Source: Bradyrhizobium xenonodulans (GTDB lineage Bacteria > Pseudomonadota > Alphaproteobacteria > Rhizobiales > Xanthobacteraceae). From it: DNA of 64,000 bases. Location: contig NZ_CP089391.1 of the NCBI RefSeq assembly GCF_027594865.1, positions 7,594,501-7,658,500 on the forward strand, given 5' to 3'. Positions within the stretch are counted from its first letter, which is position 1. Each line of letters begins with the position of its first letter. This document shows positions 39,062-47,505 of this stretch, in pieces. Below the pieces are notes generated by a model, which saw nothing but the letters and a program-made list of their open reading frames with translations, had not been told where the DNA came from and did not search any database. A program made the position numbers and the translations under genes.

Positions 39062-39928
39062 ATGAAGCGTACAGGAAAGAAGACTGCGACCGATCGGAAT
39101 TTCGTCGTCGCGCTTTCCCGCGGACTGGATGTATTGCGCGCATTCCAACCCAATGACGGCCTTCTCGGCAATCAGGAGATTGCGGCTCGCACCAACCTGC
39201 CGAAGCCGACGGTCTCGCGACTGACCTACACGCTGACGAAGCTCGGCTATCTGGCGCCGGTTCCCCGTTTCGAGAAGTACCAGCTCACGCCCGCGGCGAT
39301 GTCGCTCGGTTACGCCGCACTGGCCAATCTCGGCGTTCGGCATTTGTCCGAGCCGTTTCGCGAAGACCTGATGCGCGCCACGGGAGGCGCCGTCGCAGTC
39401 GGCGGCCGCGACCGTCACAGCATGATCTATTTCGGGCAAAGTCGCGGCAGCGAGACGGTCGGCGTTCAACTTGACGTCGGCTCCCGCGTGCCGATTGCAA
39501 CCAGCGCGATGGGCCGGGCCTATTTCTGGGCGCTCGACGACGAGAACCGCGCTGAAGTGTCCCGCATCCTGCGCGAACATTACGGCAGCCGCTGGCCCAA
39601 GATGCGCGATGGCCTCGAGCGTTCCGGCGAGACCGTTGCGAAATACGGTTTCGCGATTTCAGTCGGCGACTGGCACGACGACATCGGCGCCGCCGGCGTC
39701 GCGCTCAAGCTCAACGACGGAACCGGACCTTACGCATTCAATTGCGGCGCGCCCGCATTCCGCTTCACGGAAGAGCGTTTGATCAACGACATTGGACCGC
39801 GTCTGCTTGCGATGGTAAGGAACATCGAAGCGGCACTCGGGGGACTGATGCCGCAATCCAAAAAAGAAGTCAGCAAAAAGCTGAAATCAGGAGGAAAAGT
39901 TGCGCGCGTGGCCGAGGGGTTCAGATAG
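39062..39928 (+). CDS. IclR-family transcriptional regulator
   Basis: A 288-residue regulator. The N-terminal winged helix-turn-helix has FVVALSRGLDVLRAF, LGNQEIAARTNLPKPTVSRLTYTLTKLGYL and FEKYQLTPAAMSLGYA. The C-terminal effector domain includes VAVGGRDRHSMIYFGQSRGS, VPIATSAMGRAYFWALD and YGFAISVGDWHDDIGAAGVAL. Start ATG 39062 gives a normal N-terminus. It is divergent from the pim operon and upstream of an ABC importer, so it probably controls both in response to a dicarboxylate, acyl-CoA or related ligand. Its C-terminus is unusually Lys-rich. Confidence 0.92.
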   Translation: MKRTGKKTATDRNFVVALSRGLDVLRAFQPNDGLLGNQEIAARTNLPKPTVSRLTYTLTKLGYLAPVPRFEKYQLTPAAMSLGYAALANLGVRHLSEPFREDLMRATGGAVAVGGRDRHSMIYFGQSRGSETVGVQLDVGSRVPIATSAMGRAYFWALDDENRAEVSRILREHYGSRWPKMRDGLERSGETVAKYGFAISVGDWHDDIGAAGVALKLNDGTGPYAFNCGAPAFRFTEERLINDIGPRLLAMVRNIEAALGGLMPQSKKEVSKKLKSGGKVARVAEGFR

Positions 39929-39994
39929 CCTTTGTCATCACCAGGAGCGGTTCGCATCGCCCCTTCGCCCACTGAAAAGTGTGGGCGAGACGAC

Positions 39995-40792
39995 ATGACG
40001 CAGGCACAGCTCGCGCAGGGGACATCGCCCTTGCTCGCGGTTCGCGACGTCAGCGTCGTGTTCGGCGGCATCATTGCGCTCAACGGCGTATCCTTCGACA
40101 TGCACAAGGGTCAGATTCTCGGACTGATCGGCCCCAACGGCGCCGGCAAGACCACGCTGTTCAACTGCCTTTCACGGCTCTACCAGCCGTCGTCCGGCGA
40201 CATCCTGATGGAAGGCGTGAGCATTCTATCGCGGCCTCCGCACCGGATCGCCGAGATTGGCATCGGCCGTACCTTCCAGAACGTGGCGCTGTTTCCGAAT
40301 CTTTCGGTGATGGACAACGTCCGCGTCGGCGCCCACTCGAAGACATCCAGCGACATCATCAGCGACTCCCTGAGACTGGCCTGGGTCCGGCGCAGCGAGA
40401 ACGACGTCAACAAGAAGGTCCACGAGATCCTCGCTTATCTGAAGCTCGAGGACGTCGCCCACACCGTCGTCTCAGGCCTGCCCTTCGGCACACAGAAGCG
40501 CGTCGAGCTGGCCCGTGCACTGGCGGCCGATCCAAAAATCCTGCTGCTCGACGAGCCCGCCGGCGGCCTCAATCACGAGGAAGTCCATGTGCTCGGCGAC
40601 CTCATCCGCAAAATCCGCGATGAGCGCCACATGACCGTGCTGCTGGTCGAGCACCACATGGGCCTCGTGATGTCGATCGCCGACCACGTCGTCGCGCTGA
40701 ATTTCGGCAAGAAGCTCGCGGAAGGCACCCCAGCCCAGGTGCAGGCAGACCCCGACGTCATCAAGGCCTATCTCGGGAGCAAGGACCAATGA
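39995..40792 (+). CDS. Branched-chain-type ABC transporter ATPase (LivG class)
   Basis: A 265-residue cytosolic ATPase. Walker A is [12 protein letters not shown], the LivG-type GIGRTFQNVALFPNLSVMDNV follows, the signature is LPFGTQKRVELARALA and Walker B is KILLLDEPAGGLNHEE. The His switch is LLVEHHMGLVM. ATG 39995 is chosen because the preceding 21 codons are not like the family. It overlaps the next ATPase gene by four bases. Being next to the pim operon, the substrate is more likely a dicarboxylate or fatty acid than leucine. Confidence 0.93.
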   Translation: MTQAQLAQGTSPLLAVRDVSVVFGGIIALNGVSFDMHKGQILGLIGPNGAGKTTLFNCLSRLYQPSSGDILMEGVSILSRPPHRIAEIGIGRTFQNVALFPNLSVMDNVRVGAHSKTSSDIISDSLRLAWVRRSENDVNKKVHEILAYLKLEDVAHTVVSGLPFGTQKRVELARALAADPKILLLDEPAGGLNHEEVHVLGDLIRKIRDERHMTVLLVEHHMGLVMSIADHVVALNFGKKLAEGTPAQVQADPDVIKAYLGSKDQ

Positions 40793-41502
40793 CGGCACTG
40801 CTCAACGTCAAGGACCTGCGCGCCTATTACGGCCAGGTCCAGGCGCTCCATGGCCTGTCCTTCTCGCTCAACGAGGGATCGCTGACGACGCTGCTCGGCG
40901 CCAACGGCGCCGGCAAGACCACGACCTTGCGCGCGATCTGCAACATGGTGCGCTCGACCGGCGCGATCGAGTTCGAAGGCCAGCCGCTGAGCAACCGCTC
41001 CACCGAGAGCATCGTGCGCTTCGGCATCGCCCACGTGCCGCAGGGCCGCGGCACCTTCACCACCATGACGGTGGAGGAGAATCTTCAGCTCGGGGCCATC
41101 ACCCGCAAGGACAGCGCCGGCATCGTCTCCGACATCGAGCGCATGTACGCGCATTTCCCGGTCTTGAAGCAGCGTCACACCCAGCAGGCCGGCACGCTCT
41201 CGGGCGGCGAGCAGCAGATGCTCGCGGTCGCCCGCGCGCTGATGCTGCGGCCGCGCCTGATGCTGCTCGACGAGCCATCCTTCGGACTCGCGCCGCTGGT
41301 GGTGCGCGACCTGTTCGGCATCCTCGGCAAGATCAACCGCGAGGACAAGGTGTCGATCCTGGTGGTCGAGCAGAACGCCCAGCTCGCGCTCGAGCTCGCC
41401 GACCAGGCCTATGTGATCGAGACCGGGCGCATCGTGATGTCGGGCAATGCCAAGGACATCGCGAACAACGAAGAAATCCGCAAATCCTATCTGGGTTATT
41501 GA
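40789..41502 (+). CDS. Branched-chain-type ABC transporter ATPase (LivF class)
   Basis: A 237-residue ATPase with Walker A LLGANGAGKTT, FGIAHVPQGRGTFTTMTVEENL, signature LSGGEQQMLAVARAL and Walker B LMLLDEPSFGLAP. Length and sequence are those of LivF. It is coupled to the LivG-type gene by an ATGA overlap and followed 12 bases later by the first permease. The heterodimer with the LivG-type ATPase would drive the importer. Confidence 0.94.
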   Translation: MTALLNVKDLRAYYGQVQALHGLSFSLNEGSLTTLLGANGAGKTTTLRAICNMVRSTGAIEFEGQPLSNRSTESIVRFGIAHVPQGRGTFTTMTVEENLQLGAITRKDSAGIVSDIERMYAHFPVLKQRHTQQAGTLSGGEQQMLAVARALMLRPRLMLLDEPSFGLAPLVVRDLFGILGKINREDKVSILVVEQNAQLALELADQAYVIETGRIVMSGNAKDIANNEEIRKSYLGY

Positions 41503-46141: not shown

Positions 46142-46170
46142 AGCCCCCGCGACGCAGCCGCGGGGGCTTT
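46142..46170 (+). terminator. Terminator after receptor 2
   Basis: AGCCCCCGCG and CGCGGGGGCT form a 10-base-pair stem around a nine-base region, followed by TTCTG. The stem is identical to that after receptor 1, suggesting the terminator was copied together with the gene. Confidence 0.9.
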
Positions 46171-46275
46171 CTGTTGAACGCTCCCGTCAAATCGTATTGA
46201 ATTGCGTTCGCGACGCCAAAAATAATCAAGCCAAGAAAAGGGACGCACACACACCAAGAAAATAGGGAGATAGGA

Positions 46276-47505
46276 ATGCCCGCTGTCACCGGCAAACTCG
46301 CGACCGCGTCACTGGCCCTCGCGCTCATTGCGGCCTCGGCCTCAACTGCATCGGCCCAGAAGAAATACGATACCGGCGCGACCGATACCGAAATCAAGAT
46401 CGGCAACATCATGCCCTACAGCGGACCGGCCTCCGCCTACGGCATCATCGGGCGGACCGAAGCCGCCTATTTCAAGAAGATCAACGACGAGGGCGGCATC
46501 AACGGCCGCAAGATCAACTTCATCAGCTACGACGACGCCTATTCGCCGCCGAAGACGGTGGAGCAGGCGCGCAAGCTGGTCGAGAGCGACGAGGTGCTGT
46601 TGATCTTCAACTCGCTCGGCACGCCGCCGAACACGGCGATCCAGAAATACATGAACTCGAAGAAGGTGCCGCAGCTCTTCGTCGCCACCGGCGCCACCAA
46701 GTGGAACGATCCGCAGAACTTCCCCTGGACGATGGGCTGGCAGCCCAACTACCAGAGCGAGACGCAGATCTATGCGAAGTGGCTGCTGAAGAACAAGCCG
46801 GACGCCAAGATCGCCGTGCTCTTCCAGAACGACGATTACGGCAAGGACTATCTGAAGGGCCTGAAGGACGGCCTGGGAGCGAAGGCCGCCTCGATGATCG
46901 TGATCGAGGAGAGCTACGAGACCTCCGAGCCGACCATCGACAATCACATCGTCAAGCTGAAGTCGACCGGCGCCGACGTCTTCATGAACATCACGACGCC
47001 GAAATTCGCGGCGCAGGCGATCAAGAAGAATGCCGAGATCGGCTGGAAGCCGCTGCACTTCCTCAACAACGTCTCGGCCTCCGTCGGCAGCGTGATGAAG
47101 CCGGCCGGATACGAGAACGGCCAGGACATCATCTCGGCCGATTATCTGAAGGACGCCGCGGATCCACAGTGGGCCGCCGATCCCGGCATGAAGGACTTCC
47201 TGGCCTTCATGGACAAGTACTTTCCGGAAGGCGACAAGCTCGATCACGGCACCATCGTCGGCTATGCCGTCGCGCAGACGCTGGTTCAGGTGCTCAAGCA
47301 AAGCGGCGACGACTTGACGCGTGCGAACATCATGAAGCAAGCCGCCAGCCTGAAGGACTTCCGCACGGAGGTGCTGCTGCCCGGCATCCAGATCAACACG
47401 TCCCCGACCGACTTCGCGCCGATCAGCCAGCTCCGGCTCGAGAAGTTCAAGGGCGAGAAATGGGACTTGTTCGGCGATGTGATCAGCGCCGACGTCGGCG
47501 GTTAG
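46276..47505 (+). CDS. Periplasmic receptor 3 of the ABC importer (LivK class)
   Basis: A 409-residue paralogue. ATG 46276 follows GGGAGATAGG. Signal peptide LATASLALALIAASASTASAQ, then QKKYDTGATDTEIKIGNIMP. The ligand loops are VLLIFNSLGTPPN and FMNITTPKFAA, a third version. Over the whole chain it looks closer to receptor 1 (shared VATGATKWNDP-NFPWT and SVGSVMKPAG) than receptor 2 in several blocks. A terminator follows. A 240-base gap from receptor 2 gives room for its own promoter. Confidence 0.93.
   Translation: MPAVTGKLATASLALALIAASASTASAQKKYDTGATDTEIKIGNIMPYSGPASAYGIIGRTEAAYFKKINDEGGINGRKINFISYDDAYSPPKTVEQARKLVESDEVLLIFNSLGTPPNTAIQKYMNSKKVPQLFVATGATKWNDPQNFPWTMGWQPNYQSETQIYAKWLLKNKPDAKIAVLFQNDDYGKDYLKGLKDGLGAKAASMIVIEESYETSEPTIDNHIVKLKSTGADVFMNITTPKFAAQAIKKNAEIGWKPLHFLNNVSASVGSVMKPAGYENGQDIISADYLKDAADPQWAADPGMKDFLAFMDKYFPEGDKLDHGTIVGYAVAQTLVQVLKQSGDDLTRANIMKQAASLKDFRTEVLLPGIQINTSPTDFAPISQLRLEKFKGEKWDLFGDVISADVGG

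Follow-up and report, generated by a model that had tools for sequence, protein, structure and literature searches.

What does an ATP-binding cassette (ABC) importer do with three receptors encoded in tandem behind it, and which compounds do they bring in? The question is raised by a 64-kb stretch of DNA (the window) from the 8.28-Mb, single-contig genome of Bradyrhizobium xenonodulans, in which the genes of one LivG/F/H/M-type importer are followed by three LivK-type periplasmic receptors (R1 to R3), beside a set of pim genes. The original prediction had the gene content, order and strand right, and the motifs that it quoted recur exactly in the R1 to R3 translations. Our analysis indicates that the three receptors belong to a much larger set: the LivGFHM importer is likely a hub for a clade of 14 receptors, most of them encoded far away, and would import carboxylic acids that lack an amino group. 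Below, labels beginning with L denote loci and those beginning with G denote genomes. The importer cluster comprises the following genes.

39062..39928, + strand: IclR-type regulator, the first gene of the cluster (Pfam HTH_IclR and IclR_C; ATG at 39062)
39932..40792, + strand: LivG-type ATPase (ABC_tran and BCA_ABC_TP_C; ATG probably at 39995)
40789..41502, + strand: LivF-type ATPase (ABC_tran; top NCBIfam model LivF, score under the cut-off)
41515..42393, + strand: LivH-type permease (BPD_transp_2)
42390..43412, + strand: LivM-type permease (BPD_transp_2; ATG probably at 42396)
43452..44681, + strand: periplasmic receptor R1 (Peripla_BP_6; TTG start with AAGGAG ahead)
44810..46036, + strand: periplasmic receptor R2 (Peripla_BP_6; ATG at 44810 preferred, the TTG at 44771 of the open reading frame list being less likely)
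46276..47505, + strand: periplasmic receptor R3 (Peripla_BP_6)

Fourteen receptors and two importers in one genome

A search with R3 recovered 38 relatives in the genome; a single clade accounts for 14 of them (46 to 72% identity, E ≤ 8e-117), and the next match is only 26% identical. The eleven members beyond R1 to R3, together with a second importer, lie elsewhere in the genome and had no place in the original prediction. The corresponding search with LivH returned 25 proteins, namely the window's own (100%), one at 98% and 23 others at 24 to 33%. Receptors of the clade outnumber importers and are mostly encoded apart from them, as would befit a hub. A distant LivH homologue (30%) is also encoded within the window, at 52380-53021 (+), ~5 kb past R3.

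The second importer (L009) is 99, 98, 94 and 87% identical to that of the window in LivF, LivH, LivM and LivG, respectively, and is accompanied by one receptor, 71% identical to R3. It belongs to a separate acyl-coenzyme A (acyl-CoA)-type cluster (L009:5410-16258, corresponding to G000:C1 about 6794400-6805300) with a thiolase, a nitronate monooxygenase-like gene, an acyl-CoA dehydrogenase and other genes, several of them named by eye. At the DNA level, this importer is nearer to the one at the pim locus of a different Bradyrhizobium genome, G005 (LivH 98.9%, LivG 97.5%), than to that of the window (93.5 and 89.6%), which rules out a simple recent duplication of the latter and suggests transfer or conversion.

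Near the ten remaining, dispersed receptors, neither LivH nor LivM was found within their 19-kb stretches (E ≤ 1e-15); the L012 stretch holds generic ABC ATPases at 27 to 32% identity. Several of the ten have neighbors suggestive of acid catabolism. The L010 receptor lies beside an acyl-CoA ligase (Pfam) and two acyl-CoA dehydrogenases, and inspection by eye places an acyl-CoA ligase next in line at L015, an acyl-CoA dehydrogenase next in line at L018, divergent biotin-dependent carboxylase genes at L013, an overlapping monooxygenase-like gene at L017, and a metallo-hydrolase-like gene at L014. The L014 locus also encodes, in line and two genes past its Liv-type receptor, a Bug/TctC-like receptor (L014:7107-8075, by eye), so that two receptor families for different transporters stand together there. 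A palindromic stretch, GTAGGGTGGGCAAAGGCGC...GCCCACC, occurs just after the receptor genes of L012, L018 and L019 and looks like a genomic repeat element.

Joint occurrence and dispersal across genomes

The importer and the receptor clade occur together across genomes. In a family sample of 100 genomes, the importer was present in 46 and the receptor clade in 48, with both in 46, neither in 52, the receptor only in 2 and the importer only in none. The lists of positive genomes were identical for the two in a class sample (28 of 289 genomes each) and in a phylum sample (19 of 398 each), these sets being matched by tallies and listed positives. The three samples share some genomes, receptor numbers in all of them are lower bounds, since scoring took in at most 18-24 candidates per genome in the family, 6-8 in the class and 4-6 in the phylum sample, and the thresholds (1e-70 to 1e-90; for the family, E ≤ 1e-90 for the importer and E ≤ 1e-70 for the receptor) were set from the gap in the source genome. 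The Fisher values for the co-occurrence are tiny and ignore kinship.

Copy numbers of the two components differ widely. In the family sample, 43 of the 46 importer-bearing genomes have one importer and 3 have two, alongside 1 to at least 16 receptors (median 4; two or more in 34/46). Among 23 genomes of the genus, 20 have one importer, G004 and G017 two and G007 three, with 3 to 29 receptors (median 14); the 14 receptors of G011 include a mirrored repeat in contig C16, and the G016 count includes a contig-end fragment. Because most of the distant genomes carry one importer and one receptor, the multiplication of receptors is likely derived. Two genomes deserve separate mention: in G011, the receptor matches of contig C16 (around 491052-967963) are mirrored about the middle, an inverted repeat that is perhaps an assembly artefact, and the sole receptor of G475 (G475:C3:40286-41473) reads with one internal TGA, the LivH of its importer being intact.

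Arrays at the pim-type loci of relatives vary as well. Receptors were found at 76 of 80 such loci, some of which are cut by contig ends; three receptors were most frequent (34 loci), followed by two (16), four (15), one (8) and five (3). G065 and G105 each have a five-receptor array, complete with the glycerate kinase gene, at a distance from the importer locus, which retains two receptors. The tree joins the L010 receptor to tandem members from G045 and G106 (100 in the Shimodaira-Hasegawa-like approximate likelihood ratio test, SH-aLRT), and members therefore move between array and dispersed sites; the tree was built with a quick method, SH-aLRT being its sole support measure, and it leaves most dispersed receptors, on their long branches, unsure. 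The L010 receptor is conserved as a dispersed one: an orthologue (85% or more) is present in 15 of 18 fetched loci of relatives. In 14 of the 15 the immediately preceding gene encodes the same acyl-CoA ligase, and LivGFHM was found at none of the 18 loci (E ≤ 1e-25). The L009 cluster is kept with its own importer in G017 and G004.

The substrates that we propose for the importer are fatty and dicarboxylic acids of medium and long chain length, probably along with related acids whose activation yields CoA thioesters. A receptor would capture its acid, close and dock on LivHM, with LivGF hydrolyzing ATP. A ligase whose gene lies next to that of the importer (pimA) or of the receptor (L010, L015) would then turn the acid into a CoA thioester, which would enter beta-oxidation. 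The dispersed receptors of the clade would dock on the same LivHM pair, each with its own ligand range, so that one kind of importer probably serves the whole family, the receptors deciding which plant-derived acids enter. At the pim locus, receptors would be amplified in tandem; they would also disperse, several of them into acyl-CoA ligase/dehydrogenase clusters, and the importer would stay at one copy (here two near-identical ones). We infer docking on this importer from the co-occurrence and the conserved orphan status of the receptors; no solved relative of LivH on which to map it was found at E ≤ 1e-3.

Several observations weigh against such a hub. Two of the 100 family genomes, G108 (69% identity) and G092 (a weak match), have a receptor and no importer, and co-occurrence is not independent among related genomes. 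G009 keeps a receptor (90%) and parts of the L009 cluster without the former importer, beside a truncated dehydrogenase, a locus that may represent decay. The lone receptors L011, L012, L016 and L019 have no obvious catabolic neighbor by eye, and the most divergent dispersed receptors (46 to 50%) may use another importer or be sensors. If the importer served only its local receptors (R1 to R3 and that of L009), the dispersed ones would feed other LivHM importers: the 23 further LivH homologues testify that other permeases exist in the genome, and receptors as divergent as 46% identity could have another docking partner. We regard this as unlikely, since in the class and phylum samples the clade is found only where the pim-type LivH occurs, and genomes with the receptor only, expected to be common if other LivHM pairs sufficed, are as rare in the family as stated above. 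Binding proteins of other kinds are known to act as sensors or scavengers, and the four receptors that stand alone would suit such roles, whether with kinase or chemoreceptor partners or as secreted binders. That many of the dispersed receptors do so is very doubtful: no kinase or chemoreceptor gene was recognized beside the ten by eye, without a domain search, and a tie to the presence of the importer would not be expected of sensors or scavengers.

Ligands and transcription of the tandem receptors

The importer cluster is divergent from a pim-like gene set and, in many relatives, is closed by a glycerate kinase gene.

36835..38931, - strand: pimF-type enoyl-CoA hydratase / 3-hydroxyacyl-CoA dehydrogenase (ECH_1, 3HCDH_N, 3HCDH), divergent from the importer cluster
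35069..36751, - strand: pimA-type acyl-CoA ligase (AMP-binding)
33885-35072, - strand: thiolase of a pimBCD-like set (domain search; whole set 31440..35072)
32678-33952 and 31440-32582, - strand: two acyl-CoA dehydrogenases of the same set (domain search)
47660..48982, + strand: glycerate 2-kinase-like gene (DUF4147 and MOFRL)

This is the pim-locus layout of the Rhodopseudomonas palustris type, with divergent pimF/A, IclR, LivGFHM, tandem receptors and glycerate kinase, for which the Rhodopseudomonas loci L138 and L189 served as comparison, and the IclR gene keeps its position in nearly all loci of relatives that extend that far. A short-chain dehydrogenase gene (30517-31329, -) comes after the pimD-like dehydrogenase.

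Two ABC_tran domains, two BPD_transp_2 domains and Peripla_BP_6 in one cluster place the system among the HAAT-type (Liv family) ABC importers. This family-level resemblance, along with database annotation, would favor a standard importer of branched-chain amino acids whose LivJ/LivK-like receptors are redundant, a reading that we find extremely improbable. Every score lies far under the NCBIfam Liv cut-offs: 52.8-56.8 of 477 bits for the receptors, 271 of 362 for LivG, 237 of 441 for LivF, 105 of 379 for LivH and 136 of 366 for LivM. The residue equivalent to Glu226 of the Escherichia coli leucine-binding protein (LBP), which we take to contact the amino group of the ligand, is V, T, N, A or G, with no acid, in 14/14 paralogues of this genome (V265 in R1), in an alignment made at about 20% identity. 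Furthermore, the ligands found for the counterparts in R. palustris are fatty and dicarboxylic acids. In the published screen of RPA3723, RPA3724 and RPA3725, which are encoded together with ABC genes next to pimFABCDE, such acids shifted RPA3723 and RPA3724, with differing profiles that track the substrate range of PimA, and broad uptake feeding the Pim enzymes was proposed for the system (Giuliani et al. 2011, PMC3223731). Independent genetic work in beta-proteobacteria connects growth on pimelate and on C6-C8 fatty acids with predicted ABC transporters (PMC12543098).

The structure that best matches the AlphaFold2 model of R1 (predicted local distance difference test score, pLDDT, 91.8) is 4n03 from Thermomonospora curvata, whose title is fatty acid receptor; it is also the best sequence match of R1 (22-23% identity), though not of R2 or R3. 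Two results pull the other way. The match to 4n03, at 22% identity, stands just 1.0 Z unit above that to the valine receptor 3lkb, the two being six to ten residues apart; and RPA3725, 71% identical to RPA3724 and 60% to RPA3723, bound no ligand in the screen (PMC3223731), which counts against three working acid receptors if R3 and RPA3725 are counterparts. They likely are. R1 is 80% identical to the second and R3 81% identical to the third receptor of Rhodopseudomonas pentothenatexigens (L138), whose third receptor is 72% identical to its second and 58% to its first; because this pattern agrees with the published 71 and 60%, R1 is likely the counterpart of RPA3724 and R3 that of RPA3725, the RPA numbers being assigned through the identity pattern of the R. 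pentothenatexigens receptors and not through CGA009 sequence. Nothing at the pim locus of R. palustris clearly corresponds to R2, whose clade is confined to the genus in the tree sample. Thus, of the predicted importer shared by receptors for related acids beside pim, the non-amino-acid ligands gain support from the published binding, the missing acid at the Glu226 equivalent and the structural match to 4n03, whereas the picture of three acid receptors on one importer suffers from the silence of RPA3725 and was incomplete, there being 14 receptors and two importers. In substance, the shared-importer hypothesis had largely been published already for R. palustris.

Could the three receptors simply be redundant copies, kept for dosage, with the same ligands? 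They are 66% (R1-R2), 71% (R1-R3) and 68% (R2-R3) identical in pairs and have an N-terminal block and many pocket residues in common. Redundancy nevertheless appears quite improbable. In the tree, the R1 and R3 clades are old and retained across genera with fixed differences. The two variable blocks singled out in the original prediction do align with the ligand-holding loops of LBP, and clade-fixed differences fall at 6/26 pocket-homologous positions versus 25/356 others (p = 0.0125), for a set comprising the positions aligned to LBP contacts ± 1 and drawn up post hoc, after the sites had been listed; the contact residues are those that we take LBP loops to have. The differing ligand profiles of RPA3723 and RPA3724 in the screen (PMC3223731) likewise argue against redundancy.

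The regions between the receptor genes contain the following elements.

44720..44747, + strand: hairpin 3' of R1, a 12-bp perfect stem followed by a T-run, kept in 11 aligned gaps
44752..44779, + strand: promoter-like pair TTGACG / TTCAAT, spacer 16, ahead of R2 (by eye; absent from the list of the consensus scan)
46142..46168, + strand: hairpin 3' of R2, 10-bp stem
46189..46204, + strand: element AAATCGTATTGAATTG ahead of R3, exact in 6/8 aligned R2-R3 gaps and with one mismatch in 2/8
46197-46226, + strand: weak promoter-like TTGAAT-18-AATAAT near AAATCGTATTGAATTG (scan)
47529..47559, + strand: hairpin 3' of R3, 13-bp stem with a weak T-run

A hairpin does follow each receptor gene, as had been claimed, with stems of 12, 10 and 13 bp, and the reported repetition of one stem is borne out, AGCCCCCGCG...CGCGGGGGCT being exact at just two sites in the genome, both at this locus. 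A scan for terminator-like sites gave 14 against 9.1 (sd 2.9) in shuffles and listed only the R2 hairpin among the three; we take the hairpins as real because of their stem length, their conservation in relatives and the restriction of the stem to two genomic sites. The hairpin region is kept in the 8 aligned R2-R3 gaps, and a strict test detects perfect-stem hairpins in 48 of the 81 gaps between receptor genes in relatives. After the hairpin, TTGACG and TTCAAT are present in 11/11 aligned R1-R2 gaps, with a spacing of 16 in 10 of them. Together, these elements fit transcription units of their own for R2 and R3, and the conserved hairpins and promoter-like elements are the evidence for the predicted receptor-specific transcription; the hairpins may also protect mRNA 3' ends. 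The element AAATCGTATTGAATTG occurs once in the window (chance 0.12) and was rejected as a shared operator: its best matches differ at 5-8 positions in the regions ahead of the remaining 13 receptors and at 6 positions between pimF and IclR.

Known systems and implications

In E. coli, two receptors, LivJ and LivK, work on one importer, LivHMGF; the protein families are the same as here, the ligands are amino acids, and the scores of our system fall below the curated NCBIfam cut-offs. Among the closest known systems is that of R. palustris (PMC3223731), which represents the same locus type, LivGFHM beside pim with three tandem receptors, and for which the idea of a shared importer of broad substrate range was put forward. 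Our locus differs in that R2 is not of the RPA3723 type and arrays in relatives hold 1-5 receptors. The accessible text of that report calls the cluster Rhodopseudomonas/Bradyrhizobium-specific, whereas we find the importer and the receptor clade also in other families, and it does not discuss dispersed receptors of this clade.

For an orphan receptor of LivK type that relies on an importer encoded far away, there is a genetic precedent in BraC3, which works with the Liv-type Bra importer of Rhizobium leguminosarum / Sinorhizobium meliloti (PMC2978685); BraDEFG/BraC/BraC3 concerns amino acids and a single orphan, whereas here the ligands would be non-amino acids and the receptors number up to 29. 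Families of many receptors served by a very small number of membrane partners are also described for the Bug/TctC proteins of tripartite tricarboxylate transporters (PMC5812351), among them AdpC of R. palustris, which binds C6-C9 dicarboxylates; theirs is an unrelated, ATP-independent transporter, whereas here an ABC importer is concerned. The literature searched, which mostly excludes subscription journals, yielded nothing that describes this receptor family in terms of a hub. Liv-type importers with orphan receptors are known, and, as far as our searches show, what is new is the scale: as many as 29 receptors linked, through joint presence and absence, to a single ABC importer of carboxylic acids.

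Finding the membrane partner of orphan binding proteins is a standing problem of genome annotation, and here the pattern of presence and absence links a whole clade to one importer. On balance, we lean toward the view that in Bradyrhizobium and its relatives one ABC importer acts as the common port for a genome-wide family of up to 29 receptors, a plug-in system that spreads receptors, not importers, and in which a new acid would be adopted by a new receptor, often beside a new acyl-CoA ligase, with no new membrane parts. If true, the label of branched-chain amino acid receptor would have to be replaced for hundreds of proteins, and soil bacteria would gain a recognized uptake route for plant-polymer acids, such as the products of cutin, suberin and lignin.

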